From Rhodovulum tesquicola (GTDB lineage Bacteria; Pseudomonadota; Alphaproteobacteria; Rhodobacterales; Rhodobacteraceae), in NCBI RefSeq assembly GCF_024128855.1, contig NZ_JAMYDV010000020.1, positions 1 through 46,968 on the forward strand: a stretch of DNA of 46,968 nt. The letters run 5' to 3'. The notes under the pieces are model-generated. The model was given only the letters and a program-made list of their open reading frames with translations, had not been told where the DNA came from and did not search any database. Below, one piece after another: positions 30,486 through 46,968 of the stretch (positions are counted from its first letter, which is position 1; every line of letters starts with the position of its first letter). Made by a program: the position numbers and the translations under genes.

Positions 30486-31649
30486 TCACGCGGCCTTCGG
30501 CCGCAGCAGGGCCATCACCATCGGTCCGGGCGAGAAGGACCCATCGGCCGCCTTGCGGGACAGCGCGCGGAGATAGCCGCCGGGCGACTGGATGTCCGAG
30601 ACCCGTTGAAGGATGGCGGCTAGGGTGATGGCTGCCACCTCTGGCCCCATGTCGCGTTGTGCCTCTGTCCAGGCGTCGGGGCTGATGCCCATCATGCCGC
30701 GGACGAAACCGGCCAGCGCAACAAGCTCCTGCCAATGCCGGGGTGCGGTGGGGGCGTAGTCGAGGATATCGGGACAGGCCTTCAGCACAAGCGCTAGCGG
30801 CAGGGCAGGGGGGCTCGATCCCTGTTCCGGTGTCCTGGCCTTCGCGGTTTCACGGCAGGATTCAAATTCAAGTATATTGGTGTCTGAATTCTGATAGTGC
30901 CGCTCATTTTCGCGGTCATTGCCGCCCATTTCGTCTGTTTCGGTCAGCAGGGCGGTCAGGTCGTCCCTGAGTCTCGCGAGCGTGTCGCGCAGGATTTCCA
31001 GTTCGGCGAAGGCAAGCTTTCGGCGCATCGCGCGCTGGATATCGTGAAGGCGGAGGTTCAGCGCGTCCCAGTTGCCTTGCAGGCCCGCCTGCTGGGCGTA
31101 TTCGGCCAGCTTGATGGCGTCGCGCTTCATCAGGGTCACGTCCTCGCGCAGGCGGCGCATCCGGTCGGCAGCGGCGCGCGCCTCGGCGGCGGCATGGGTG
31201 ATGCGGCGGGCCTGGACCAGCAGGGGGCGCAGGTCGAAGCCGAAGGCCCGGGCGATGGTGCCGTTGGGGCCACGGGCGGCGTAGCGCTTTCCGTTGGGGC
31301 TGTCATGGCGGGCGATCAGGCCCGCGGCGACAAGGGCCGCGAGGTGACGGCGCAGGGTGCTTTCGGCCATGCCATGCGCGCGCTCGGACAGGGCCGCGTT
31401 CGACGGAAAGACGATCAGCGGCGCGGTCTCGGACAGGATCGTGCCGGGGTGAAAGCTGATCAGCGCGTTCAGCACCGTCAGATCGCGGTCGCTGATCCCG
31501 AATGCGGCGCGGGCGGCGCAAAGCTCGCGGAAAAGTTCCCATTTGTCGAATTCGGGAAGGCTGGCGGGGCGGCGGGCCTCGCGTACCTGTTCCAGCAGGG
31601 CAGCCGTCACCGGCCGCCGCCCGAAGGGCGTCGTTGTCAGATGCTCCAT
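30486..31649 (-). CDS. repC: Replication initiator RepC
   Basis: RepC, 387 residues, the replication initiator of repABC replicons. The N-terminal half is helical with a winged helix (LTVLNALISFHPGTILSETAPLIVFPSNAALSERAHGMAESTLRRHLAALVAAGLIARHDSPNGKRYA). The C-terminal part holds WQELVALAGFVRGMMGISPDAWTEAQRDMGPE and SPGGYLRALSRKA, which are typical of RepC. In this family the origin lies within the gene. I use ATG at 31649 rather than the GTG one codon earlier; no strong Shine-Dalgarno sequence is seen, fitting low, controlled expression. It is flanked on both sides by identical parS palindromes. Confidence 0.95.
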   Translation of the reverse strand: MEHLTTTPFGRRPVTAALLEQVREARRPASLPEFDKWELFRELCAARAAFGISDRDLTVLNALISFHPGTILSETAPLIVFPSNAALSERAHGMAESTLRRHLAALVAAGLIARHDSPNGKRYAARGPNGTIARAFGFDLRPLLVQARRITHAAAEARAAADRMRRLREDVTLMKRDAIKLAEYAQQAGLQGNWDALNLRLHDIQRAMRRKLAFAELEILRDTLARLRDDLTALLTETDEMGGNDRENERHYQNSDTNILEFESCRETAKARTPEQGSSPPALPLALVLKACPDILDYAPTAPRHWQELVALAGFVRGMMGISPDAWTEAQRDMGPEVAAITLAAILQRVSDIQSPGGYLRALSRKAADGSFSPGPMVMALLRPKAA

Positions 31650-31694
31650 CACGTTTCACGAAGGCAAGATTTTTCGTCCGCCGCAACGACGCCT

Positions 31695-31710
31695 GTTGAC
31701 AGCTGTCAAC
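31695..31710. other. parS centromere site, copy 2
   Basis: GTTGACAGCTGTCAAC, identical to the copy at 30470-30485, in the repB-repC intergenic space. The TTGACA inside it (31696-31701) can also serve as a -35 element for plus-strand transcription toward repB, so partition-complex formation here could affect the counter-transcript. Confidence 0.85.
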
Positions 31711-31729
31711 TCATGGCCCAAGATCGGAG

Positions 31730-31785
31730 GTGCTAGACAACGATTGGGGCCTCTCGGGATACGTCTCGGGGGGCTTCTTCTTTGG
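31730..31785 (+). ncRNA. Putative counter-transcribed RNA (incompatibility RNA) of repABC
   Basis: repABC units carry a small antisense RNA in the repB-repC gap that limits RepC synthesis. Here a plus-strand TTGACA (31696-31701) and a weak -10 (CAAGAT, 31719-31724) are spaced 17 bases apart. Downstream, GCCTC and the GGGGGGC at 31770-31776 can form a short stem, followed by TTCTTCTTT. The position, orientation and terminator-like end fit; the exact ends are guesses. Confidence 0.4.
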
Positions 31786-31830
31786 TCCTGCCTTTACTGT
31801 GCCTCCTTTGTCATTGCGCTGCTCTTGCTC

Positions 31831-32769
31831 TCACTTCCCGCGGGCGGTGGACCACTCGCGGTGAAGACGGGCGAGGTTCTCGACGAGCCAGTCCTCGAAC
31901 CCCTCGGCTGTCCGGTTCTCGACGCTGACGACCGTGGTGCCGCGCTTGCGCGCGACGCGGGCCAATGCCGCGCCATCCTGGGTGCGCACGGTCTGGGGCG
32001 GCGGGGCAGGGGGGCGGGGGCGGACCAGCGCGGCCATCACCGCCTCGAAGCGGGCATCCGAGGTCTCGCCCTTCGCGGCCTCTGTCAGGTCGCGGCCCCT
32101 GATCCGGTCGGCCAGCGCCACCCAGCGGTCCCGCCCGATGCCCGGCGCCGAACCGATCGCCTCGATCAGCGCGACGGGCACCCGGTCGGCGACGGAAAGC
32201 ATACGGGAAATCAATGTCTTGTCGACATGAAGGGCATCGCAGATCACCTTGCGGTCATAGCCCGCATCGCGCATCTGGCGGGCGAAATTCGCCCGTTCGA
32301 TAAAGGTCAGATCGCGCCTTGCGGCATTTTCCTGACCCTGGGCGATCACCAGTTCGCGGTCGTCCAGCACCCGCACCATCGCCTTGACCGGCATGTGCAG
32401 CGCCCTGAGCGCGGCGACGCGGCGCCGGCCATAGACCACCTCGTAGCGTTCGGCATCGTTCGGGTTCGGCCGCAGCAGGACCGGCACCTGCTGGCCGTAA
32501 AGGCGGATCGACTCGATCAGCTGGTCGAGATCGGGGTCTTCGTGGTCGAGCCGGTCGCGAAAGCCGCCCTGGTCGATCATCCGGGGATCGACCTCGGAGA
32601 TCGAGCGGGATTTCAGCTCGGCGATGGACTGGCTGACCGCGCCGATCGCGCCCTTGGAATAGCGCGGCCGCGCGGCGTCGATGCGGGCCGGGGCAGGGGC
32701 GGCGGGCGGGGTCTCGGGTTCGGCCGATTTCGTTTCGATCAGGCCCTTCAGCAGATCCTTACGCGCCAT
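31831..32769 (-). CDS. repB: Partition protein RepB (ParB family)
   Basis: RepB, 312 residues, the centromere-binding CTPase of the repABC partition system. The ParB N-domain is visible around residues 55-130 (VDPRMIDQGGFRDRLDHEDPDLDQLIESIRLYGQQVPVLLRPNPNDAERYEVVYGRRRVAALRAL), where YGRRRVAAL takes the place of the GERR box. The central helix-turn-helix follows (FARQMRDAGYDRKVICDALHVDKTLISRMLSVADRVP), and the C-terminus is a dimerisation domain. It starts at ATG 32769 and overlaps the repA end by 11 bases. Its binding sites are probably the two GTTGACAGCTGTCAAC palindromes around repC. Confidence 0.96.
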   Translation of the reverse strand: MARKDLLKGLIETKSAEPETPPAAPAPARIDAARPRYSKGAIGAVSQSIAELKSRSISEVDPRMIDQGGFRDRLDHEDPDLDQLIESIRLYGQQVPVLLRPNPNDAERYEVVYGRRRVAALRALHMPVKAMVRVLDDRELVIAQGQENAARRDLTFIERANFARQMRDAGYDRKVICDALHVDKTLISRMLSVADRVPVALIEAIGSAPGIGRDRWVALADRIRGRDLTEAAKGETSDARFEAVMAALVRPRPPAPPPQTVRTQDGAALARVARKRGTTVVSVENRTAEGFEDWLVENLARLHREWSTARGK

Positions 32770-33949
32770 CGCCGCGCCCCCATGCATTCTGGACCAGCGC
32801 CTCGATCTCGCCATTGACGGCGTTGAGGCTTTCGATCGCGCGCTCGTAGGTCGAGCGGGTGAACTGGGTCTTTTCCACCTCGTAGAGCGTCTGCTTGGTG
32901 ATCCCGGCATCCGAAATGGCGGTGGATTTCAGCATCGGGTGATTCAGCACATGATCGCCGAACATCGAGCGCATGAAGCTGACCATCTGGTTCTGCGGCC
33001 CGTCGCCGGGTTCGTAGCGGGTGATGAGATAGCGCAGCCAGTCATAGGACATGTCCGCGCCCGCCTCGGACACGACACCCAGCAGGTTCGAGACCATCAG
33101 CAGGAACTGGCACATCGACATCACGTCCAGCATCTGCGGATGCACCGTCACCAGCACGGCCGTCGCCGCCGACAGCGCGGACATGGTCAGGAATCCCAGC
33201 TGCGGCGGGCAATCGATCACCACCACGTCATACTCCGCCTCGACCTGGGCCAGGGCGTCGCCGACACGGGTGAAGAAGAAGCTGCCCGACCGGTTGGCGA
33301 GTGCGCGCGGCGTCTCGTGCTCGAACTCCATCAGGTCGAGATTGCCGGGGATGATGTCGAGATTGGTGAAATAGGTCTTCTGGATGACCTGGGCCAGCGG
33401 CGCGGGCTCGTCATAGCGGATCGCATCGTAAAGCGTGCCGCCGTCCAGCAGGTCGAATTCGGGCTGGAAGCCGTGCAGCGCCGACAGGCTGGCCTGCGGG
33501 TCCAGATCGACCGCCAGCACGCGGTAGCCGTCCAGCGCCATCTTCTGCGCCAGATGCGCGGCGGTGGTGGTCTTGCCCGAGCCGCCCTTGAAGTTGATGA
33601 CGGTGATGACCTGCAGGTGATCGCCATTGCGTCGGCCGGGAAGATAGGTGCCGGGGCTCTTGGCGCCCGCCTCCAGCAGCCTGCGCAGGGACTGGATGTC
33701 CTCGGGCGTGTAATAGCGCCGCCCGTTGCCGCGAATCTCGGGGCTTGGGCCCTTGCCGTCCAGATGCAGCTTGCGCAGGTAGGCATCCTTGACGCCCAGC
33801 AATTGCGCGGCCTCGCCAGAGGTGAACTTGCGCAGGGTGCGTCTGGCGTCCGGCGGGAAGAGCTGTGCCCTATGTGCCTGCAATCGCTCGGAAAGTTTCT
33901 GAGCATGTTCCCCGACCAGCAGGTCGATGCGTTCTTGCCTGTATGCCAT
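32759..33949 (-). CDS. repA: Partition ATPase RepA (ParA family)
   Basis: RepA, 396 residues, a type Ia ParA ATPase that segregates the replicon and represses its own promoter. Residues about 40-95 form a MerR-like helix-turn-helix (FTSGEAAQLLGVKDAYLRKLH, RRYYTPEDIQSLRRLL). The deviant Walker A is KGGSGKTT at 121-128. Walker A' is VLAVDLDPQASLSAL and Walker B VVVIDCPPQLGFLTMSAL. It is the first gene of the repA-repB-repC operon. AACCG (33968-33972) and CGGTT (33980-33984) form a dyad just upstream of its start, a candidate autoregulatory operator. Confidence 0.97.
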   Translation of the reverse strand: MAYRQERIDLLVGEHAQKLSERLQAHRAQLFPPDARRTLRKFTSGEAAQLLGVKDAYLRKLHLDGKGPSPEIRGNGRRYYTPEDIQSLRRLLEAGAKSPGTYLPGRRNGDHLQVITVINFKGGSGKTTTAAHLAQKMALDGYRVLAVDLDPQASLSALHGFQPEFDLLDGGTLYDAIRYDEPAPLAQVIQKTYFTNLDIIPGNLDLMEFEHETPRALANRSGSFFFTRVGDALAQVEAEYDVVVIDCPPQLGFLTMSALSAATAVLVTVHPQMLDVMSMCQFLLMVSNLLGVVSEAGADMSYDWLRYLITRYEPGDGPQNQMVSFMRSMFGDHVLNHPMLKSTAISDAGITKQTLYEVEKTQFTRSTYERAIESLNAVNGEIEALVQNAWGRGDGA

Positions 33950-36373: not shown

Positions 36374-36447
36374 GGCGAGTTGGCGGAGTGGTTACGCAGC
36401 GGATTGCAAATCCGTGTACGCCGGTTCGATTCCGGCACTCGCCTCCA
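36374..36447 (+). tRNA. tRNA-Cys (anticodon GCA)
   Basis: The acceptor arms GGCGAGT (36374-36380) and ACTCGCC (36437-36443) pair perfectly, with discriminator T and encoded CCA at 36445-36447. The anticodon stem GCGGA/TCCGT encloses the loop TTGCAAA with anticodon GCA. The T arm is GCCGG-TTCGATT-CCGGC. It lies beside a tyrosine integrase, so its 3' end is the probable attachment site of the element to the right. Confidence 0.95.
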
Positions 36448-36695: not shown

Positions 36696-37886
36696 TCAGC
36701 CTCGACTTCCCGAGGCTCCTTTCGCTCTCTCGTTCTCCTGTCGCTGCCTCTCCTTGGCCGCCGTCAGCTTGGCCAACACCTCATCCGAGACCTCGGGAAC
36801 GAGCGCGGCATAGCGCTCGATGATGTTGGCGGCATGCCGGATCCCCCATCCCATGGTCACGGCGATCTCGTTCAGGGTGCAGCCCGCCCGCAGGAGCGCG
36901 GTCGCGGCGGTCCCGCGCATGTCGTTCAGGCGCAATTCATCCCGGATGTGGATTTTCGTCCTGTCTGCCTTCGCCGCCTCGTTCGCCCGCTTTTTCAGCT
37001 CGCGAACGATCGCCGACGCCCGCAAAGATGTGAGCCGTTTTCCGGTCAGGGAGGTGATCAGATACTCCTGGTCTTCCGGCGTGGTGTCGATGACGCTCGC
37101 CATTGCCGGTGTGACAGGGATGCTCACGGGCTTCCCGCTCTTAGTTCGCCTGAAGTAAATGCGGCGCCCCAACGGCGTGCTCTGCACATGGCTGCGGGTC
37201 AGAATGCCGATATCCTGCGGCGTCAACCCGCCCTCGGACGCCGCGATCACCACCCTTTTCTCCGCCTCGGTGGCGACTTCCAGCAGGGCATTCACCTCGC
37301 GCGGCAGCCAGATGATCTCGGCCCGGTTCGCCCGATAGGTCTTCTTGACCCCAGAATGATGGTGCATGTCGATGTACCGGGTCTGTTTCGCCCAGTTCAG
37401 CAAGAGCGTCACCACCGCGCCTGCGTAATCATATCTTTTCGGCGAATGGGACCATTTGTTCTTCCAGGTCACGATCTCCGCAATCGAATCGGGCTCTTCG
37501 AACATCTTGATCGGGTCTTCGCCAAATTCGGCTTCGAACGAATTCAGGAAGCTGTCATAGTCGCGGCGAGTGCGTTCCGCCAACTGGACATATTCAGCCG
37601 ATTGCTTGAATTTCACGATGATGGCGCCGGTCGACACGAGGTTCGGCACGTAACACGGCTTGCTGCGAGCGCCGCGCTTGTTCTGGGCTCGCTCTTTCGC
37701 CTCGATATACGCCGCCAGGTATTCGTCGCTTCCCAAGCCAAAGTCCTGGCCGGAATGCCAGAATTGCGGCCCCCCACGGCGAACGTAATGATACTCACGT
37801 ACCGTGCCATCGGCGAGGGTCTTCACCACGATCTGGACCCCTTTCGGCACATTGCTCCGTCGGCTCGTACTACGTTTTCGTGGCAC
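36696..37886 (-). CDS. int: Tyrosine-type site-specific integrase
   Basis: A 396-residue phage/ICE-type integrase ending 248 bases from tRNA-Cys and pointing at it. The core-binding domain is at about 100-200 and the catalytic domain at about 205-370. The catalytic Lys is in RRTKSGKPVSIPV, the second Arg in LNDMRGTAATALL, and the nucleophile Tyr in IIERYAALV. Three usual positions deviate: the first Arg region reads EGGLTPQDIG, the His of HxxR is Asn (NDMR), and the later His is Trp (MGWG). The Trp change is common in related alphaproteobacterial integrases; the first two are less expected. The start is GTG at 37886, with GAGGAGG 7 bases upstream. It overlaps the excisionase-like gene by 17 bases. 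Confidence 0.92.
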   Translation of the reverse strand: MPRKRSTSRRSNVPKGVQIVVKTLADGTVREYHYVRRGGPQFWHSGQDFGLGSDEYLAAYIEAKERAQNKRGARSKPCYVPNLVSTGAIIVKFKQSAEYVQLAERTRRDYDSFLNSFEAEFGEDPIKMFEEPDSIAEIVTWKNKWSHSPKRYDYAGAVVTLLLNWAKQTRYIDMHHHSGVKKTYRANRAEIIWLPREVNALLEVATEAEKRVVIAASEGGLTPQDIGILTRSHVQSTPLGRRIYFRRTKSGKPVSIPVTPAMASVIDTTPEDQEYLITSLTGKRLTSLRASAIVRELKKRANEAAKADRTKIHIRDELRLNDMRGTAATALLRAGCTLNEIAVTMGWGIRHAANIIERYAALVPEVSDEVLAKLTAAKERQRQENERAKGASGSRG

Positions 37887-38190
37887 GGCGCATCCTCCTC
37901 AACTCGGTAAGGTTGTTTTCGATAGGCTTCGAGGATGTCGGCTCCGACGGGACGATCCCCTGGAGCGCGTTCAATCGCTCGCGCACCAGATGCGCGTCAA
38001 AGAGATGGGGGCGTCCGGGAACAGGCTCGATCCCGGTCTGTCTGACCCAGCGACGAAACTTGGAGTCCGGACCATCGGGAAAGCGCATGACACCGGCCAG
38101 TTCCTCCGCCGTGAGGAACACGAGCGAGGCTGCCGTCGCGGCGTTCCGCACGTGATGTCCGGCAAAGGGATGAGAGTCGTATCCGTCCAT
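37870..38190 (-). CDS. Excisionase-like DNA-binding protein (DUF4224-type pattern)
   Basis: A small protein of 106 residues from ATG 38190 (a GTG at 38202 would add four). The pattern FLTAEELAGVMRFPDGPDSKFRRWVRQTGIEPVPGRPHLFDAHLVRERL matches the small helix-turn-helix proteins encoded next to tyrosine integrases: LTxxEL, then Trp, then GIP-like. It overlaps the integrase start, and both are on the minus strand. It probably sets the direction of recombination or regulates int. The family assignment rests on pattern and position only. Confidence 0.75.
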   Translation of the reverse strand: MDGYDSHPFAGHHVRNAATAASLVFLTAEELAGVMRFPDGPDSKFRRWVRQTGIEPVPGRPHLFDAHLVRERLNALQGIVPSEPTSSKPIENNLTELRRMRRATKT

Positions 38191-38334
38191 GGTGGTCGCC
38201 ACGTGGGGTTCGGTTTTCTTGATGAGGGGGAGATCGGTCCATGCCTGCTCTGCCGGTCGCGAGAACGCGCACGGATTGCCTTCATGGTTAACCGATCGGC
38301 GTCATGACTGGCGGTAACGCGCAAGGGGCATGCG

Positions 38335-38385: not shown

Positions 38386-38823
38386 TCAGGTCCGGCCGAG
38401 GAGGAGCCGTTCAGCCTCGAGCCGGTCGAGCACGTCCCGGCGGAGGGCCAGGACCGTCTCGAGCCGGTCGACCAGCCCCGCGAGCGCGCGGCCGTGGTCC
38501 GAGTACTCCACCACCTCCTGGACGATCCCGACGGCATCGCCCTCGGGGTCCTGAAACCCCATGAACTCACGGTGCCGGCCGAGTTCCTCGGCATCGCGCA
38601 GCGCGCGCAGCCGGGTCAGCGCCGCCTCGAAGCCGCCCTCGTGGAGCCGGTCGAACACCTTGTCGTCGCGCAGCGGGGACAGGCATCGCTGGAGGTACGC
38701 CACCTCCTGCGAGTCGGCGCCCGGCTGCATGTCGCGGGCGAGGAGCGCGACCTCCCGCCCGAGGCGGAGCCCCCGCGCCGCCAGGTCTTCCAGGCTTTCG
38801 GATTGGCGATCGTGTTTCTGCAT
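38386..38823 (-). CDS. Unknown helical protein
   Basis: A 145-residue protein I do not recognise. It is charged, Leu-rich and probably all-helical, with coiled-coil-like stretches (LEDLAARGLRLGREVALLARDM, LVDRLETVLALRRDVLDRLEAERLLL). There is no signal peptide. The ATG at 38823 has GGAGAGGGAA upstream. It follows the unknown gene at 38905-39303 in the same direction and shares its helical, Asp/Arg/Leu-rich style. It lies in the accessory region right of the integrase. Confidence 0.7.
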   Translation of the reverse strand: MQKHDRQSESLEDLAARGLRLGREVALLARDMQPGADSQEVAYLQRCLSPLRDDKVFDRLHEGGFEAALTRLRALRDAEELGRHREFMGFQDPEGDAVGIVQEVVEYSDHGRALAGLVDRLETVLALRRDVLDRLEAERLLLGRT

Positions 38824-38904: not shown

Positions 38905-39303
38905 TCACGCGGCCGCCGCGGCGGCTGGCGAGGGCGGCCCGGCGATCTCGCCGAGAAGGGTCCCGAGGCGATCCGTGAGCCGGCAGAGATCCTCGACCCG
39001 CGGATCGGCGGGGTGAATCTCCGCGAAACGCGCGGCCTCGACGCTGTCGAGATCGTCGACATGGTCGAGGGCGAGCAGCCCGTGCAGCGCCACGAGGTCC
39101 CGTTCGAGCCCGCGCGTGAGGCGGTCCGCGCCGGACATGGCCTCGAGAAGCCCCAGCGCCCGGCTTTCCCAGCGCGCGCCCCCGAGGAGCGCCGCCGCCG
39201 TGACGAGCGCCTCGCCATGTTCGTTGCAGAAGTGGCGCGCCGCTGCCAGGCGCGGGTCGCAGGTGACCGGTGTGCCGGTCTTGAAATTATCCTTGACGTA
39301 CAT
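38905..39303 (-). CDS. Unknown protein beginning MYVKDNFKTG
   Basis: A 132-residue protein of unknown family. The N-terminus (MYVKDNFKTGTPVTCDPRLAAARHFCNEHGEALVTAAALLGG) has two Cys and two His, and the rest is helical (MSGADRLTRGLERDLVALHGLLALDHVDDLDSVEAARFAEI), ending in a run of six Ala. The start at 39303 is strongly supported by GGAGGAAA upstream. It is followed by a hairpin and the unknown gene at 38386-38823, probably as one transcript. Confidence 0.7.
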   Translation of the reverse strand: MYVKDNFKTGTPVTCDPRLAAARHFCNEHGEALVTAAALLGGARWESRALGLLEAMSGADRLTRGLERDLVALHGLLALDHVDDLDSVEAARFAEIHPADPRVEDLCRLTDRLGTLLGEIAGPPSPAAAAAA

Positions 39304-40004
39304 GGGTTTCCTCCATGCGGTGCTGCCGCCCCATGCGGCAGCGTCACAGGACCCGGCGCTGACCTCCTTTCGGTCCGGGGGATGGCGGGCGAAGCGCGTC
39401 GTTGGCAGCAGAAAGGTTGGTATCGGGATGCTTCGACCCGGGTTTCGGTTTCGCGCGGCTGGGGGGTCCGGCGCGGTCTCGCCCCGAGGACCGCGCCGGA
39501 ACCACGGGCCGCGCCCCATGGACCAGTTCGTCCTTGGCCGGCTCGGCAAGCGGCGGTCTTCCTGCGGCGCCCGCGCTCCCGGCGGTCAGGGCGCGGGGAA
39601 GGCATCGGAGGTCAAAAAAAAGTGCGTATCGGTCACGCGGGCCTCGTGGCTCCAGGTCCAGCGGAAGGCATGGTACCTGTAGCGCTCCGTGGCCATGAGG
39701 CGCTCAAAGGCCCGCTGCATCCCGGCCCCAAGAGGCCATCGACCCGGCCCGTGTGATAGCCTGTTCCCTTCAGCGATTGCTGGACCATCCGGTGGGCACC
39801 ATCCGAACGCGCAACACAGGCGCGACGGGCATCCTCCAAGGTGACAGGACGCCTCCCATCCGCGTCCTTCAGGCGAAATGTCCCAGTGTTTCGGCTGTCG
39901 AGAGAGGCTCGCCCCGCCCGATCGGCCGATTACTCCACATTCGCGTTTTGGCTCGGCTCGACACGATACCAATTCCTCCAGGCACCAACAGAAGGAGAAC
40001 TCAC
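39304..40004. other. Gap with inverted repeat and gene remnant
   Basis: The gap contains a perfect 12-bp inverted repeat, TCCGGCGCGGTC (39467-39478) and GACCGCGCCGGA (39489-39500). It also holds the frameshifted peptidoglycan-binding remnant at 39586-39924 on the minus strand. No intact gene is supported. The right end carries the ribosome-binding site (GAAGGAG) of the gene starting at 40005. Confidence 0.6.
39586..39924 (-). pseudogene. Frameshifted peptidoglycan-binding-domain remnant
   Basis: Read on the minus strand, one frame gives LEDARRACVARSDGAHRMVQ, then QSLKGTGYHTGRVDGLLGPG. This matches the PG_binding_1 pattern (VQxxLxxxGYxxGxVDGxxGP). The pattern ends abruptly near 39721. The natural continuation, MQRAFERLMATERYRYHAF and so on to a stop at 39586, is in another frame. 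A single missing base at about 39720-39722 (GGGCCGGG followed by ATGCAG) would join them. No start codon with a ribosome-binding site is seen. It is probably a decayed gene for a cell-wall-associated protein. Confidence 0.5.
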
Positions 40005-40913: not shown

Positions 40914-42596
40914 TCAGAACTCCCCCTCGAATTCCGCGAACAGCCCCTCGACCAGCTCCTGTCCCCGGGCCATCTGCGCCGCGGCGACGGCCTTGCCCTG
41001 GTAGAACAGCCGGCTCTCCGGGTCGATCTGGGCGCAGAGGGCGAGGGCTGCGTCCACGCCCGCGGGGCCGAGCTTGCCGAGTTCCGTGTGGATCCGGGTG
41101 CGCGCGATATGCGCCCCGGTGCCGAGGTGTTTCCGCCAGACCGTGCTGGGGTAGCCCTTCGACAACGCCGCGCCATCGGACTTGCGAAAAAGGGGGGCCC
41201 GGCGCTCCTGCGCTCTTTCGCGCATCTCGGGCAGATACGCCGGGTCGACCCCCTGGAGCACCAGCGCGTCGAGGAACCGTGTGAGGCGCGGATGAAGGCG
41301 GCCGCGCAGCGGAACCCCTTCCTTGTTTGTCGTGATATCGATCCAGTACTGGCCGTCTTCGAAGACAACATGCTCCCCCCAGCGCAGGGTGCCGTCCTCC
41401 AACCGCAGCGGGAGAAGGGTCCAGAGCGCGAGCACGGCGGCCTCGTTCCGCAACCGGAAGAGGCTGGCCCGGTCGCCCGGACCATGGCTTGCCTCGAGGA
41501 GGCCAAGGGCCAGCGACCAGGTTTCCTGCAGGTCCGGTATCGCGGCGAGCCGGGCCTCCTTGAGCGGCACCACGCCCCGCTTGGCCCGGCGCAGGGTCTT
41601 CTCGTGGGTCTTCAGGGCCTCGAGAATATAGGCCTCCTCGCCAATGCGGTGGCCGAACTGCCGAAGCCGCATCGTGGCGGTGTGCAGTGTCGCCGGGCGG
41701 CGCCCCCGGGCGCGGAGCCGATCCTCGTGAAGCCGGATGCCGGTCAGGCTGAGCGCGATCGGCAGGCCGTTATCGGTCATTGTGCGGGCATAGGCCCGGA
41801 GGGTCTCTTCCATGCTCGTGACCACGCTCTTCGCCAGAGCCTCGTGGCCATCGAGCGCCCCGCCCGCGCGCAGGGCGGCAAGCGTCCGCTGCCAGCCCAG
41901 GGGCAGGTCGGAGAGCGGCAGGCTCAGGTCCGCGGGCCGCGGTTTCGCCGGCTTCCGGCGCTCCTTTTCCGGCGTCTTGAGTTGAATGGCCTCGCGCAGG
42001 GTCAGGACGACCGCGGGGTTTCCCGGCAGCAGGCGCGCCAAGGCGGCTTCGAGCGCGCGCAGGCGGCGGGACGACGTGGTGTCGGCGGAGAACGCCAGGA
42101 AATCCCGGGGCGTCGGGATCTCCACCCCATTCTGGACGGCGAAGACGAGGAACCGGTCGAGAACCCGGAGGTCCTCCAGCGCCACGTCCGACATGCCGGG
42201 CAGGTCCCGGTACGGCGCGAAGTGCGCGCCGGACAGTATTTCCTCCCGGCTGCGCCGATCGCAGCGCCGCGACCGCGGTTTCTGCATCCGGATCGCCTCC
42301 TGCACCACGGCGCGGATCTGTGCGTCGGCGGGCAGGAATTTCCCGAACGCGAGGCGCAGGTCGGCGAGCGCCCGGGCCGATCCGATCTCCTCTGCAAGAG
42401 CGAGGAGGTCGTCGATGCACGGCGTCTCGAGGGACCGGGCCTCGGCCCAGGCGAGGAACCGGTCGAGCATGCGGAGCTCGCGGACGGGGATGTCCGCGAC
42501 CCCCTGCAGGTCACGATAGGGGGCGAAGCGCGGCCCGGCGAGAATGTCCGCCGGGCTGCGGGTGTCATAGGATCGTCTGGCGGTCGTCTCAGTCAT
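40914..42596 (-). CDS. Large tyrosine-recombinase-fold protein with degenerate active site and internal duplication
   Basis: A 560-residue protein. Residues about 13-108 and 115-210 are a tandem duplication: both contain FAPYRDL, a later Leu-Asp-Arg-Phe-Leu helix and LREAIQL/VQEAIRM ends. The C-terminal half resembles a tyrosine recombinase catalytic domain. RNEAAVLALWTLLPLRLEDG carries a candidate first Arg, TTNKEGVPLRGRLHP the beta-hairpin Lys, and RLFYQGKAV a candidate Tyr. The HxxR box reads HTEL, so the second Arg is missing. It is therefore probably a non-catalytic or altered partner of the 608-residue recombinase. The start overlaps the end of that gene by 8 bases, implying coupled translation. 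Confidence 0.85.
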   Translation of the reverse strand: MTETTARRSYDTRSPADILAGPRFAPYRDLQGVADIPVRELRMLDRFLAWAEARSLETPCIDDLLALAEEIGSARALADLRLAFGKFLPADAQIRAVVQEAIRMQKPRSRRCDRRSREEILSGAHFAPYRDLPGMSDVALEDLRVLDRFLVFAVQNGVEIPTPRDFLAFSADTTSSRRLRALEAALARLLPGNPAVVLTLREAIQLKTPEKERRKPAKPRPADLSLPLSDLPLGWQRTLAALRAGGALDGHEALAKSVVTSMEETLRAYARTMTDNGLPIALSLTGIRLHEDRLRARGRRPATLHTATMRLRQFGHRIGEEAYILEALKTHEKTLRRAKRGVVPLKEARLAAIPDLQETWSLALGLLEASHGPGDRASLFRLRNEAAVLALWTLLPLRLEDGTLRWGEHVVFEDGQYWIDITTNKEGVPLRGRLHPRLTRFLDALVLQGVDPAYLPEMRERAQERRAPLFRKSDGAALSKGYPSTVWRKHLGTGAHIARTRIHTELGKLGPAGVDAALALCAQIDPESRLFYQGKAVAAAQMARGQELVEGLFAEFEGEF

Positions 42597-44415
42597 CGAT
42601 CAGCCCGATCATCAGGTCCTGGCCGCGCTCCATCGCCTTCAGCGCATCGATGAATCCGTAGAAGCGCAGCAAGGCGTCGACCGTGTGCCCGGTGCGTCTG
42701 GCGATCACGAGAACCTCCTCGGGATGCTTGTTGAGCAGCAGCGACGCCTGGCCGTGCCGGAACTGGTGCGGATTCATCGGCAAGCCGACGATCGACCGGG
42801 TCGCGTTCTGGAACTCCGCGCGGAACCATCTGTCCGAGACCGGCGCGCCGGGCGTCCGCGGCGACGGGAACAGGTAGAGGTTGTCCTTCGCCCCCGGGAT
42901 CAGCGGCCGGATCTCGCGGACGAACCACAATATGGTGTCGTGGCCGCGATACTTGTTCGGCCGGATCGTAAACTGGATGTCCTCTTCCTTGGCCTTGGTG
43001 TGCGCGGCCGGGATGAAGACCCGGATCGGCGTCTTCCTGCCCTTCTCCGGCACCGTGACCCAGGCACCGGGGCCATAAAGCGTTGCGTTGAGAACATTGG
43101 AGACCCTCAAGGGGGCCCCGGCGATCTCGATCGCGGCGAAGACCGCGCACATGCCGAGGATGCAGACACGCGACCGTTCGCGTCTCGTGAGCGCCCGTCC
43201 CTCGACCTTGGCCCGGTCGAGAATGGCCTCGGCGGCGCGGCGCAGGGCCAGGTAGGAGCCGAGGAATGTCAGCCGCAGGTCGCGCCGGGCGATGAGCCGC
43301 TCGCAGAACGCCCGGTTCCCCGGCGTCATCGTCCTGTCGTCCTTCGCCCCCGCCTTGAGATCCAGGTTGGCTTTCAGCGCCTGCTCCAGCGTCACCGGCT
43401 CTTGACCGGCCACCCGGAGGACCTGGCAAATGGTCTTGAGGTACTTCCGGACGGTGCGCCGCGTGAGCCCCCCTTCGGTCGTCGGCAGGCCGACTCGTGC
43501 AAGCAGGGCGCGGGCCACGTCCGCGGCGCGGGTCTCGTCGAGGCAGGCCGGCAGGCAGCTGTTCGCCCCGGCGTCGAGCGCGCCGATCGAGACGGCGCAG
43601 CGCAGATAGGTGCGGAACGCCGCGCGCGCGACATGCGCATGCTTTTCGTGCCGGGTCGTGTTCTCCTGCGTGATCGGGTCCCAATCGGTCTCGGTAGCAG
43701 CAATGATCCAGGGCTCGAATTCCGCGGCAACGGCCGCCGGGATTTCCAGCGGCGCATCGTGGTGCTCGGGCGCAAACCCGATGGGCTGGGGCGGCAACAG
43801 CGGCAAGGCCTCCGGGACTTTCCGATACGCGTCCATGCGGCGTGCAGCGGTCCGGTGGCTGCTCCGCCGGTTGCCGTGGTAGAGGGACTCGAGTTCGATC
43901 ATGAACGTGCGATCGACCTGCCAGGGCTGCCGATCATGCGCCCGGCAGGTCTGGGCAAAACTCTTGAGAGCGATGAGCTTCTGCGGCGCGATCACCCACC
44001 GCGTCGGATGATCCTTGGTATACGGTTCGAGCACCGCCAGCAGGTCCGACCATCCATCCTCGACATCGCGCAGCGCCTGTTTGGTGGCCGCGATCCCGAG
44101 GAAATTCTCAAGGCTTGTCCGGGTCCGGTTCCGCCATGTGAGATATGCGGCCTCGGTCCGGTTCCAGTCCGGGTCGAACCCGTCGAGCGGATAGAGGCGG
44201 TCGAATTGGTCAAGATCGACCGGGCAGGTCTCGACCGGTCGGTTCAGCTTCCGGGCGAGCGTGCGGATGGCGGCACGGTAGCTGTCGGCGGTTGATTTGG
44301 AAATCTCGCCGGCGATCTCCCGGCGGTCGATATCGGCAAGCACGTCTGTCAGCACCGGTCCTGCCGGCGGAACCGGAATGGCCGTGCCTGATTTCGGCAT
44401 CGTGAGGTTCAGCAT
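42589..44415 (-). CDS. Large tyrosine recombinase of a putative mobile module
   Basis: A 608-residue protein with an intact tyrosine recombinase active site at the C-terminus. Arg is in GAPLRVSNVLNATL, Lys in PEKGRKTPIRVFIPA, His/Arg in MNPHQFRHGQASLLL, His in ARRTGHTVDALL, and Tyr in LRFYGFIDAL. The N-terminal about 300 residues are an enlarged core-binding region. It is far longer than typical phage integrases (about 350-400). The ATG at 44415 has GGGGAGA upstream, and the leader is packed with inverted repeats. It is coupled to the 560-residue recombinase-fold partner. It should catalyse strand exchange for the module. Confidence 0.9.
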   Translation of the reverse strand: MLNLTMPKSGTAIPVPPAGPVLTDVLADIDRREIAGEISKSTADSYRAAIRTLARKLNRPVETCPVDLDQFDRLYPLDGFDPDWNRTEAAYLTWRNRTRTSLENFLGIAATKQALRDVEDGWSDLLAVLEPYTKDHPTRWVIAPQKLIALKSFAQTCRAHDRQPWQVDRTFMIELESLYHGNRRSSHRTAARRMDAYRKVPEALPLLPPQPIGFAPEHHDAPLEIPAAVAAEFEPWIIAATETDWDPITQENTTRHEKHAHVARAAFRTYLRCAVSIGALDAGANSCLPACLDETRAADVARALLARVGLPTTEGGLTRRTVRKYLKTICQVLRVAGQEPVTLEQALKANLDLKAGAKDDRTMTPGNRAFCERLIARRDLRLTFLGSYLALRRAAEAILDRAKVEGRALTRRERSRVCILGMCAVFAAIEIAGAPLRVSNVLNATLYGPGAWVTVPEKGRKTPIRVFIPAAHTKAKEEDIQFTIRPNKYRGHDTILWFVREIRPLIPGAKDNLYLFPSPRTPGAPVSDRWFRAEFQNATRSIVGLPMNPHQFRHGQASLLLNKHPEEVLVIARRTGHTVDALLRFYGFIDALKAMERGQDLMIGLIDD

Positions 44416-44550
44416 GGGCGTGTCTCCCCTGTCGTGTCCGCGATTGCGTGGTCAAATCGCGGAGATGACAGGGACACGCCCGGTGTTTCCGCCCGTGAAA
44501 TGCACCGGGTGATCCTGTCAGGATCGCCTTGTCCGTATCGGCGTGTCCTG
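44416..44550. repeat. Nested inverted and direct repeats upstream of the recombinase
   Basis: GGGCGTGTC (44416-44424) plus CCTGTC (44428-44433) mirror GACAGGGACACGCCC (44467-44481). Inside lie CCGCGATT (44438-44445) and AATCGCGG (44455-44462). Further right are CCCGGTG (44479-44485) with CACCGGG (44503-44509), and GATCCTG-T-CAGGATC (44511-44525). GGCGTGTCCTG recurs at 44540-44550. Such density is expected of a recombination site or a multi-operator control region. Confidence 0.8.
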
Positions 44551-44602
44551 CTCGCGTTTTCCATATCAAAGGTCCTGTTCTGCTCGTGGTTTCGGCGGTG
44601 GG

Positions 44603-45055
44603 TCATTTCGGGGAGGCGGGTTTCAGGGCACCGAAGGCCGGGCGGGCCGAGGTCTTGCGACGGGGAAAATTCGGCCTGTCGCGGAGGCCTTCCCAGGCGT
44701 GGATCTCGGCCGGAATCCACCGCGTCAGGCGCGGACCGAGTTGCAGGGGCGCGGGCATGTCGGCCCGCCCCTCCCGCCGCCAGCGATGGACCGTTTCCCG
44801 ATCCACACCGAGCAAGGCCGCGATATCCGCCGTCGTCATCAGCGGCGTCTTGAGATCCGCGAACTGCTCTGGGGACAGGTCAGGGTTCAGCCCCATCGCG
44901 CGCACGACAACGGGCCAGGGCACCGTGGTCCCTCTGACATTCACGCCGAGAGATTTCAGCAGATTGCGGACGGGCCGAACGTCGTTGCGCCCAGCCTTTC
45001 GGCCGAGCTTGAAATACGTCCTCAGGTCCTCGAGCGTCGCCCGGTCGATGTCCAT
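44603..45055 (-). CDS. Helix-turn-helix DNA-binding protein of the recombinase module
   Basis: A 150-residue protein. The C-terminal part carries an excisionase/MerR-like helix-turn-helix: MTTADIAALLGVDRETVHRWRREGRADMPAPLQLGPRLTRWIPAEIHAWEG (residues about 82-132), with the typical wing and the ITRW-IPAEI-like end. The N-terminal half (LRTYFKLGRKAGRNDVRPVRNLLKSLGV) is of unknown family. The ATG at 45055 has GGAGGT 5 bases upstream. It lies between the Rep-like gene and the recombinase, on the same strand, so it is a likely recombination-directionality or regulatory factor that binds the adjacent repeats. Confidence 0.85.
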   Translation of the reverse strand: MDIDRATLEDLRTYFKLGRKAGRNDVRPVRNLLKSLGVNVRGTTVPWPVVVRAMGLNPDLSPEQFADLKTPLMTTADIAALLGVDRETVHRWRREGRADMPAPLQLGPRLTRWIPAEIHAWEGLRDRPNFPRRKTSARPAFGALKPASPK

Positions 45056-45191
45056 TCCGCACCTCCGGAGGAGGAGAAAGGGAAAACCGGGGCGATCTCA
45101 AAATCCGGGTGCGGGATCTTTCACGGGTAAGGCGGCCACAGGTCGGGGCGCGGCGGGAAAGGCCGAAGATCCCGGGTCAAGAACTGCCGGA

Positions 45192-46079
45192 TCATGACGC
45201 CGTCAGACGCGCGCGCCAGGCCGCGACCGGCTCGACGGCATCCGGCAGGTTCGTCAACGCGACATCGCGGACCGTGGTCGCGTCGATGACAAGGGCCCGG
45301 GTCGTCTGACCCCGACCCCGCGGGCGCTTGAACAGCTGCGGTCTTTGCCATGTCGAGTGCATATGCTCGGCGCGGATGATGACGGTATCGATTCCGGGCA
45401 GCACGTATTGCCAGTGCAGCAGCACCACGAACCGCATGTTCTCGCGCGCCGCGATCTTCTGGAGGCTGCCGACGAACGGCTTGCGCAGACGCGCCCAGCT
45501 CGGGACACCGCCCGCCCGCAACTCTGCGCAGAGATCGGGAACGGCGAAGGCGCATTGCGGTCGGCGCATGCGCCGGACCAGTCCGACCTCGGTATGGAGG
45601 CGGAGCGCGAGAGCGGTTCTCAGGTCGGCAAGCCTGCGAATGTCGAAAAGGCCGTATTCATCATCCCGGAACAGCCAGGCCTCGGCAATATCGCTGAACT
45701 TCCAGCGCACGACCCGGCACCGGTGCTCGAAGCTCAGGACGTCGAACAACCAGGTCTGCCGGAGGATCTCGGCTCCGCGCGTGAGCGACCGGTTGTCGTT
45801 CGCGGCGGCCGTTCCAAGCAAGGTCTTGATCGCGACGCAGGCCCGGGCATGGCCGCCGGCGGGGAGCTCGAAATTATTGCGATACCAGTTCCGCACCTCG
45901 CGGCAGGTCGCATGGATGAGCGCGTGCAAGAGCCGGAGCGCGTCAAGATCGAGCTCTAGGTCGACGACATACTCGTGAAACCCGCGCGGGATGCGGTACA
46001 TGAAGTCGGATTGGATGTCGGTCGGCACGGACGTGACAGCGGCGTCGACGGAGGCGTGGGGATCATCATACGGGGCCAT
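45192..46079 (-). CDS. Rep-like winged-helix protein
   Basis: A 295-residue protein. The middle looks like the tandem winged-helix fold of Rep_3-type plasmid initiators: YGLFDIRRLADLRTALALRLHTEVGLVRRMRRPQCAFAVPDLCAELRAG, followed by SWARLRKPFVGSLQKIAARENMRFVVLLHWQ. I could not identify a family with certainty. The start at ATG 46079 has GAGGA upstream; longer in-frame extension (to 46241) lacks support. It is first in the minus-strand series that leads to the two recombinase-fold genes. If it is a Rep, the module could replicate as a circle after excision. Confidence 0.75.
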   Translation of the reverse strand: MAPYDDPHASVDAAVTSVPTDIQSDFMYRIPRGFHEYVVDLELDLDALRLLHALIHATCREVRNWYRNNFELPAGGHARACVAIKTLLGTAAANDNRSLTRGAEILRQTWLFDVLSFEHRCRVVRWKFSDIAEAWLFRDDEYGLFDIRRLADLRTALALRLHTEVGLVRRMRRPQCAFAVPDLCAELRAGGVPSWARLRKPFVGSLQKIAARENMRFVVLLHWQYVLPGIDTVIIRAEHMHSTWQRPQLFKRPRGRGQTTRALVIDATTVRDVALTNLPDAVEPVAAWRARLTAS

Positions 46080-46594
46080 GGGGTCCTCATTCCGGATCGG
46101 TTCCGTCAGAAGGTGAGACCGATCCCTCGCCGGCGGAAACGGACCGCGCCGTGTCAGCCCGGACACCGGCGGGGCCGCCCCGGCGGCGCCTCGTCCGTGG
46201 CCGGATGACGGTGGCCTCCCGCCGCCCCCAGGCGCCGCCACCCCGTATCAGGGACGCGACGGCGCGCGGAACAGCCTGATCGTCCGAGGGTTTCCGGGTC
46301 TCGAAAACCCGGAAAACCGGAAAAGAGAGAACCCCCTGAAAAGGCCAGGCTTCGCCTCGGGATCGATGAGGGGACCGGGATGAGGGGGCCTCCCCGCCCG
46401 CCGGTTCCTGATCGAGGACAGCACGGAGTCGAGGCGTTTCGCGGCAACCAGGGCCTTATCCGGCCCCCGGGTCACCTCGCGTTTTTCGCCGGGCACGAAG
46501 CGACCAACATTACCCTTGGGACCCTCCTCTCCGTCCCATTATCGCAAACCCGCTTTCGCAAACCCATTGCGGAACCCGAAGAAGGACAGTGACC
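46080..46594. other. Non-coding gap with dyad and direct repeats
   Basis: No gene is supported in these 515 bases. A hairpin TTTCCGGGT (46291-46299) with ACCCGGAAA (46307-46315) is the strongest dyad. At the right end TCGCAAACCC occurs at 46542-46551 and 46556-46565, with a weaker third copy (TGCGGAACCC, 46568-46577), directly before the small DNA-binding gene. Confidence 0.55.
46542..46577. repeat. Iteron-like direct repeats
   Basis: Two perfect copies of TCGCAAACCC with a 14-base period and one degenerate copy 12 bases later. They end just before the ribosome-binding site of the KfrA-like gene. They could be its autoregulatory sites or replication iterons. Confidence 0.55.
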
Positions 46595-46846
46595 ATGACC
46601 GACAAGCCCCGCGAAGGCCGCCCGCCGAAATACACCGAAGCCCAGGTCTCGCGCGCGATCGAGATCGTCGAAGCCGCCGGGGACGAGCCGGACGGCAACA
46701 CCGTCAAGGCCGTCCTGTGCCAGGAATTCGGGGTATCCAGGGGCATCAACGCGCAGAGCCTCGCCGAGGAGGTCAAGCGCCAGCTCGCCGAGCGGGTGCG
46801 CGAGGAGCGCGAGGCTCTTGTCGCGTCGCTGTCGCCTGCCGCGTAA
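46595..46846 (+). CDS. Small KfrA-like DNA-binding protein
   Basis: An 83-residue protein with a basic, proline-containing N-terminus (GRPPKYTE, AT-hook-like), then a helical domain (AQVSRAIEIVEAAGDEPDGNTVKAVLCQEFGVS) and an acidic/basic helix (LAEEVKRQLAERVREEREALVASL). The middle resembles the KfrA N-terminal DNA-binding domain of plasmids. The ATG at 46595 has GAAGGA 8 bases upstream; the GTG at 46589 is too close to that site. Short repeats lie directly upstream. Confidence 0.75.
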   Translation: MTDKPREGRPPKYTEAQVSRAIEIVEAAGDEPDGNTVKAVLCQEFGVSRGINAQSLAEEVKRQLAERVREEREALVASLSPAA

Positions 46847-46880
46847 GCGCAGCCTGACCACCCTTCGGCTTGCCGCGTGA

Positions 46881-46968
46881 CTATTCAGCGAAGTTCCAGG
46901 GCATAAGCTCGGCGATATCGCTCTGCATGTGCTGGTCGAGGATCTTGCGGAGGGTTGCCGCGATATAG
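46881..46968 (-). mobile_element. IS66-family transposase, C-terminal end (runs off the window)
   Basis: The minus strand encodes YIAATLRKILDQHMQSDIAE, then LMPWNFAE and a stop (46881-46883). The ending DI(A/D)ELMPWNF is the typical C-terminal element of IS66 TnpC transposases. The rest lies beyond the window edge, so it is not known whether the copy is complete. Confidence 0.75.

Follow-up and report, generated by a model that had tools for sequence, protein, structure and literature searches.

Why would a mobile element carry two long tyrosine recombinases in overlapping genes, and what would the two enzymes do together? The question is raised by a contig of Rhodovulum tesquicola (NZ_JAMYDV010000020.1 of assembly GCF_024128855.1). 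The whole contig, 46,968 bp of an 80-contig draft, is the stretch analysed here and is called the window. In its open reading frame listing, four genes of interest lie on the minus strand:

45192-46079, minus strand: Rep-like gene, 295 aa; the list also holds a variant with a longer start (45192-46241)
44603-45055, minus strand: helix-turn-helix (HTH) gene of the HTH_17/AlpA/excisionase-like kind, 150 aa; likely a directionality factor or regulator
42589-44415, minus strand: TR1, tyrosine recombinase, 608 aa, with a long N-terminal part and a C-terminal catalytic domain
40914-42596, minus strand: TR2, tyrosine recombinase, 560 aa

The TR1 and TR2 genes overlap by 8 bp, and no gene lies between them. 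An original prediction, made from the sequence alone, had described these four genes on one strand with the overlap of the last two, and our listing agreed with it. It took the four genes as one element in which an active recombinase is paired with a degenerate one. Our analysis led to a different reading. We consider, with moderate confidence, that a family of integrative elements (genomic islands) in Rhodobacterales has HTH-TR1-TR2 as its recombination module, and that TR1 and TR2 would be a coupled pair joining the element ends across a T-rich crossover.

TR1 and TR2 as a recombinase pair

The 560-aa protein had been thought to lack the Arg of the HxxR box. This was wrong. The box is present in TR2 (GAH496-I-A-R499-T), and the catalytic set reads R398/K425/H496xxR499/Q523/Y532. 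We aligned the TR2 relatives of the comparison loci, which are numbered with L below (genomes with G); calls shorter than 380 aa were excluded and 47 sequences remained. R398, K425 and R499 were conserved in 47/47, where the R499 match of L037 is doubtful because its TR2 is cut by the contig end at this column. Tyr532 was kept in 43/47 and H496 in 35/47. Among the four sequences without Tyr532, L051 and L055 show a Tyr there in another alignment, L037 is the cut one, and L036 has Asn.

For TR1, the catalytic set is R437/K474/H550xxR553/H577/Y586. R437, K474, H550, R553 and Y586 were invariant in all 51 aligned TR1 sequences, among them that of the window (calls below 500 aa were excluded), so the original prediction was right about a complete set of catalytic residues in the 608-aa recombinase. 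TR1 matched phage integrase families weakly in the family model scans. Its family profile found XerC-like, XerD and XerA chains in the PDB, with a best E of 2e-8.

The two families were then compared by profile. The TR2 and TR1 profiles aligned in hhalign with a probability of 97 and an E of 8.7e-11, and the alignment paired R398 with R437, K425 with K474, H496 with H550, R499 with R553 and Y532 with Y586. The predicted structure of TR2, built from 27 sequences, had a predicted local distance difference test score (pLDDT) of 90.2. Foldseek gave 19 PDB matches for this model at E <= 1e-3, all of them Cre or the Cre derivative Tre (E 2e-5 for Cre), which bore out the recombinase fold expected by the original prediction. 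By sequence, window TR2 had no Pfam, PHROG or NCBIfam match at E <= 1 and no relevant PDB match even with the family profile, and it diverges more than TR1. Its N-terminal domain of ~100 aa is duplicated in tandem, with 40% identity over 100 residues, and the duplication is visible as a DNA repeat. Both the fold and the R-K-HxxR-Y set that mark the tyrosine recombinase superfamily were found in TR2. Since its catalytic residues are kept and paired with those of TR1, and its model matches Cre, TR2 is, as judged from alignment and predicted structure, a tyrosine recombinase whose active site looks complete. The proposed pairing of an active with a degenerate recombinase was not borne out, as both active sites look complete in the clade.

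A search of 292 genomes of the order detected TR2 relatives in 25, counting the window's own. In the tblastn comparison, TR1 lay next to the TR2 match in 26 of the 31 short loci, two being the window; the remaining short loci without TR1 include short contigs and the remnants L049 and L058. A search of named genomes with the TR1 alignment gave 24 loci, four of which (L110, L112, L121, L123) repeat records from the TR2 search. TR2 followed TR1 in 23/24 and the HTH group preceded TR1 in 22/24; the exceptions were L104, which begins inside TR1, and L125, whose contig stops just past TR1. The host genera of these loci are presumably all Rhodobacterales, except for the bin L116 (Alteromonadaceae) and L120 (assigned to Alphaproteobacteria only).

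Gene calls in the comparison loci came from a codon-usage script and their starts may be off. Loci repeating another record were skipped in the gap, alignment, T-run and Rep counts; L108 and L109 are 99.7% identical. The gap between TR1 and TR2 ranged from -14 to +11 bp in 39/43 loci. Eight loci had TR1 and no counted TR2. On rechecking, TR2 proved to have a single open frame in L038, L057, L060 and L094, where the script had overlooked it or placed its start too late; in the others it ran into the contig end (L034), was N-masked (L106) or was frame-shifted (L104, L107). The distance matrices of TR1 and TR2 correlated at 0.978, and none of 2000 permutations was as high. The pair recurs in the same order across many genomes with varied neighbours, so the arrangement is not due to chance. 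TR1 and TR2 are a co-inherited pair, not mere neighbours, and the observation is more general than a single window.

In a class-wide sample, the TR2 family is scarce: 5 of 384 genomes besides the window's own had TR2-family matches, all weak and all of other families, and the four genomes of the window's own family in this sample had none. Among viral contigs, 12 pattern matches included no relative. Seven plasmid records carry TR2 relatives. The window's genome itself contains one TR1.

The HTH-TR1-TR2 unit and its ends

The HTH gene scored 31.4 bits against HTH_17, whose cut-off is 27 bits, in line with the HTH call of the original prediction. Among many pairs of relatives (76-92% identical), DNA homology extends over ~4.2 kb; it begins shortly ahead of the HTH gene and breaks off near the TR2 stop. 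L108 and L109 are identical throughout. In most groups compared, the left edge of this homology is a T-run. We measured the edge in 14 loci hand-picked for having a T-run, with the window excluded and one member each of L105/L106, L119/L122 and L112/L113 used: over 91 pairs, identity was 27% across the 60 nt outside the T-run and 56% across the last 30 nt ahead of the HTH start. A run of at least four T at -62 to -30 occurred in 24/44 loci, against a mean of 3.2 and a maximum of 8 in 500 shuffles. L042, L043 and L044, a subfamily whose HTH gene differs, have an edge of this type too. Hairpins before the T-run were clear in just 3/21. By analogy with these relatives, the following feature of the window is a candidate:

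45100-45103, minus strand: T-run (TTTT as read on this strand), candidate left edge, located 48 nt upstream of the HTH start

A second TTTT lies at -31 relative to the HTH start. With the left edge of the window placed provisionally at about 45,100, the Rep-like gene would fall outside the unit.

The 295-aa Rep-like protein had no Pfam, PHROG or NCBIfam match at E <= 1. Its model, from 7 sequences with a pLDDT of 76, matched 14 PDB chains at E <= 1e-3 with a probability of 1.00, with hits to the Pi and RepE initiators (E 3.8e-5 for 2nra_C and 2.3e-4 for 1rep_C). The Rep-like call of the original prediction agrees with this, and the protein has, by its predicted structure, the RepE/Pi initiator fold. 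Rep relatives were present in 7/66 loci, the window included, within about 8 kb of the recombinases: upstream in the window, L105, L107, L117, L142 and L147, and downstream in L115. No Rep relative was found on the plasmids. The gene lies outside the T-run edge in the window, L105, L107, L117 and L147. No 10-mer was repeated in the 500 bp upstream of the Rep gene in 6 of the 7 loci; the window has one repeated 10-mer pair there, part of two degenerate 14-nt copies. A separate repeat search of three of the loci likewise showed no iteron array. Being outside the edge and in 7/66 loci only, the Rep gene was rejected as part of the minimal unit. Of the predicted four-gene block, which was not supported as such, the HTH-TR1-TR2 trio is the part that recurs in relatives; judged from these loci, the Rep gene is a recurrent companion in some islands.

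The right end is known for few relatives. A stretch of 95-130 bp is common to L105, L107 and L142; it contains a dyad (11/12 bases paired) and is followed by a T-run, beyond which the sequences diverge. This end lies 250 bp after TR2 in L105, which gives an element of ~4.5 kb, and ~5 kb downstream in L107. When 12-bp dyads were sought downstream of TR2 in 23 loci, a shared right end was marked in these three only. L060 and G262, of the same genus, have a common end of 81 columns (97.5%) at different host positions, and the L060 insertion interrupts a gene that is intact in its relatives G249 and G262. Contiguous flanks were sought for L108, L105, L107, L111 and L060, and a one-sided site was obtained for L060 only; what looked like a flank match of L107 proved to be an insertion sequence and was rejected. 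The defined ends expected by the original prediction were partly recovered, as T-run left edges in most groups and a few right ends, and complete empty sites were not.

The window offers a weak candidate for its right end:

39614-39621, minus strand: T8 run, with GATACGCAC before it

This run has no comparative support because the region has no match outside its own genome among 390 genomes of the order. A GATGTG-TTT motif gave 3 sense vs 1 antisense matches in 399 kb, which is not significant.

Some structures were noted beside these regions. A strong stem-loop at 39453-39514 precedes the c2 gene of the window (described below), and no Rfam family matched it. Two loci of the window's genus have stem-loops whose core resembles it, ahead of the c14 gene (L096) and of the c2 gene (L097). 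Other stem-loops come just after TR2 in L112, L122 and L124. Elsewhere in the L060 host region (L060:6752-7583), an insertion of ~16 kb is present in G262 and G249 and absent from G076, an occupied/empty pair of another kind.

Islands around the pair and the rival explanations

Small conserved genes occur beside several TR pairs, and two of them are in the window:

38905-39303, minus strand: c2, small conserved protein of ~132 aa, found downstream of several TR pairs
38386-38823, minus strand: c14, small conserved protein of 145 aa, companion of c2 in the comparison of loci

Two opposite-strand genes separate c2 from TR2 in the window. On the same strand after TR2 and within five called genes, c2, c11 or c14 was found in 12/36 loci (two of the 36 being one record). 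Two further loci of the window's genus have c14 (L096) or both c2 and c14 (L097) after distantly related recombinases. The Limimaricola islands L108, L141 and L142 have common backbone genes and, between them, three different TR pairs; the backbone comprises a methylase-like gene, genes of 146, 335 and 186 aa, c2 and a 141-aa gene. As cargo close to the pair, L068 carries a cyclase of the cyclic-oligonucleotide-based antiphage signalling system (CBASS) and a SAVED effector; L124 has a type I methylase there and L108 a type II-like one. In the cargo scan, 7 of 10 proteins had a match and 3 had none.

A third recombinase, c10, lies near 7 loci and, more weakly, 2 others; it is not in the window. 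It is a third long recombinase family related to TR1 and adjoins the pair in seven loci of other clades (for example L042:14024-16279, L068:15011-16996 and L095:6057-8135). The two c10 proteins scanned, of L068 and L095, had no Pfam match. DUF6538-domain proteins were also seen on the opposite strand downstream of TR2 (L032:12043-14298, L095:13835-15298), one with a weak integrase match.

We take the contig to be part of a repABC replicon because repC, repB and repA-like genes lie at 30486-33949. At 46834-46960 it ends in a repeat that also occurs on four further contigs of this genome, and the surroundings of the module are therefore cut off on that side. In an Rfam scan of the window, a tRNA alone exceeded the gathering score.

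This tRNA-Cys (36374-36447) bears on a different account of the locus, in which HTH-TR1-TR2 is a passenger, cargo or relic of a conventional island. The working system would then be int384, a 384-aa integrase (36696-37850) that points at the tRNA and passes the Phage_integrase cut-off (33.2 vs 27.1 bits), together with its 110-aa neighbour (37870-38202), which is weakly excisionase-like (17 bits, cut-off 23). Other integrase-like genes do lie near some TR pairs, and the two scanned with Pfam (L032, L095) carry DUF6538. However, TR1-TR2 is found in many loci with varied neighbours and its catalytic residues are strongly conserved. The 3' end of the tRNA-Cys has no second copy elsewhere in the contig (best 20/30), though the contig ends at a repeat. 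We regard this account as unlikely. A second possibility concerns TR2 alone, which could be a non-catalytic DNA-binding partner, like Tfp or GinC of the systems compared below, despite its complete-looking active site. The divergence of window TR2, its lack of family and relevant PDB sequence matches, and the altered or missing His496 (12/47) and Tyr532 (4/47) would suit such a role. Against it, R398, K425 and R499 persist in 47/47 and Tyr in 43/47, all paired with TR1 catalytic residues, and had the active site fallen out of use, drift would be expected to have removed them; a non-catalytic TR2 is accordingly disfavoured and seems to us quite improbable. The four-gene element of the original prediction, which would replicate after excision with its own initiator, has the RepE/Pi fold of the Rep-like protein and the Rep relatives near the recombinases in its favour. 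Against it stand the position of Rep outside the edge in five loci and the 59/66 loci without Rep within the sequence examined (not all 59 carry a TR pair), and no iteron array was seen. Among the accounts considered here, we think it very improbable.

Several observations also weigh against HTH-TR1-TR2 as a working recombination module. The T-run interval was chosen after examples had been seen, and 20/44 loci have no T-run, some of them with doubtful gene starts. Homology passes the T-run in L112/L113 (~85 bp), L105/L106 and L119/L122, the last extending also 1.2 kb beyond TR2, and exceeds it by at least 200 bp in L120/L121/L124. No complete empty site was found: for L060, the right flank alone is intact in relatives and the left flank matches elsewhere, and the contig of G262, whose copy may lack a TR pair, ends 2.6 kb on. 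Circles, excision and transposition were not observed, circular forms not being visible in assemblies. An inverted repeat scan of the left terminus (24 nt) in 12 elements, whose true right ends are mostly undefined, gave nothing convincing, the best hit (18/24, L044) lying inside TR2. The right end of the window is not established, and among 390 genomes of the order its right side matches its own genome only. The His496 column varies (T in 6, I in 3, Q in 1, N in 1 and a gap in 1 of 47) and L036 has Asn in the Tyr column, which leaves room for inactive members among the TR2 relatives. In L104 and L107, which are both from strain LL-001, the TR2 frame is shifted by decay or assembly error, and L049 and L058 are C-terminal TR2 remnants with TR1 absent.

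We still favour the reading of HTH-TR1-TR2 as a recombination module. TR1 and TR2 would be made as a translationally coupled pair, would probably sit as a hetero-complex on both halves of the recombination site, and may join the element ends across a short T-rich crossover. The HTH protein might set promoter activity or direction, and c2 and c11/c14 are possible accessory factors. We infer that both enzymes cut DNA and work together as a heteromer, that crossover takes place at the T-run, and that the HTH and small proteins have these roles. A bolder version is possible, and we put it forward tentatively as something we doubt more than we believe: a separate class centred on Rhodobacterales, with two long, catalytically complete and unequal recombinases acting as an obligate hetero-pair at T-tracts, swapped as cassettes into a common backbone that holds defence genes, methylases and, in some, a RepE-fold initiator possibly driving replicative movement ("copy-out").

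Comparison with known multi-recombinase systems

The strand-biased circularizing integrative elements (SEs) carry intA-tfp-intB-srap; they are described as giving a circle without an empty site, with two catalytic recombinases, a T-rich 6-bp crossover and ends with imperfect inverted repeats of 13-19 bp (PMC9345347, PMC10214605). The crossover of SE-6945 is TTTTCT/TTTTTT (PMC9345347). Like TR1 and TR2, the two R-H-R-Y recombinases of SEs are encoded in one operon at one element end, and cargo beyond the core, a small accessory gene and, putatively, a T-rich crossover are further likenesses; here a T-run, the candidate crossover, stands at the left edge in 24/44 loci and at three right ends. 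In contrast, tfp, which encodes a recombinase fold without catalytic residues, lies between the SE recombinases, whereas no gene separates TR1 from TR2. The module also differs in its leading HTH gene, its two long recombinases and its alphaproteobacterial host; the SE survey reports neither SE nor GInt homologues, and no Tfp or Srap, in Alphaproteobacteria (PMC10214605).

GInts (ginABCD; PMC5385486) resemble the module in having integrase-like genes in an operon at one island end, a poorly conserved other end and a small fourth protein. However, they have three adjacent integrases and ginD, whereas the window module has two recombinases, and GinC lacks the first Arg that TR2 keeps. Tn554 (TnpA, TnpB, TnpC; PMC3414803, PMC10214605) also combines two recombinases, one with a long N-terminal extension, with a small protein. 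As far as its description allows, it has one long and one ordinary recombinase, whereas here both are long and an HTH gene stands ahead. Recombinase-in-trio (RIT) elements (ritA-B-C; PMC3414803) have overlapping recombinase genes (4-8 bp), are common in alpha- and betaproteobacteria; they differ in their three recombinases of 315-410 aa in the archetype (PMC10214605) and total ~3.5 kb, against two of 608 and 560 aa in the window. The Gamma-Mobile-Trio (as cited in PMC12715929) is likewise a multi-gene recombinase module with defence cargo. No family of this name was among the NCBIfam matches of TR1, TR2 and companions, the presence of such models in NCBIfam not having been checked. Our literature search, covering the best matches among openly licensed papers, returned no description of the TR1-TR2 pair in Rhodobacterales.

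The exact role of each recombinase in multi-recombinase elements is not established in the sources used (PMC3414803, PMC9345347). The pair described here is an unusually clean one for asking why two enzymes are needed. Single tyrosine mutants could show how the work is divided, since both enzymes have complete active sites, natural variants are numerous and the left edge is sharply defined in most groups. CBASS or restriction-modification genes lie beside the pair in some members. In conclusion, the likeness to Tn554 and RIT-type elements drawn in the original prediction was supported, and the multi-recombinase theme is extended within Alphaproteobacteria. On the best reading, the module would work like SE, GInt, Tn554 and RIT elements and appears to fit none of them, because it has no Tfp as in SEs, two recombinases instead of the three of GInts and RITs, and two long enzymes where Tn554 has one.

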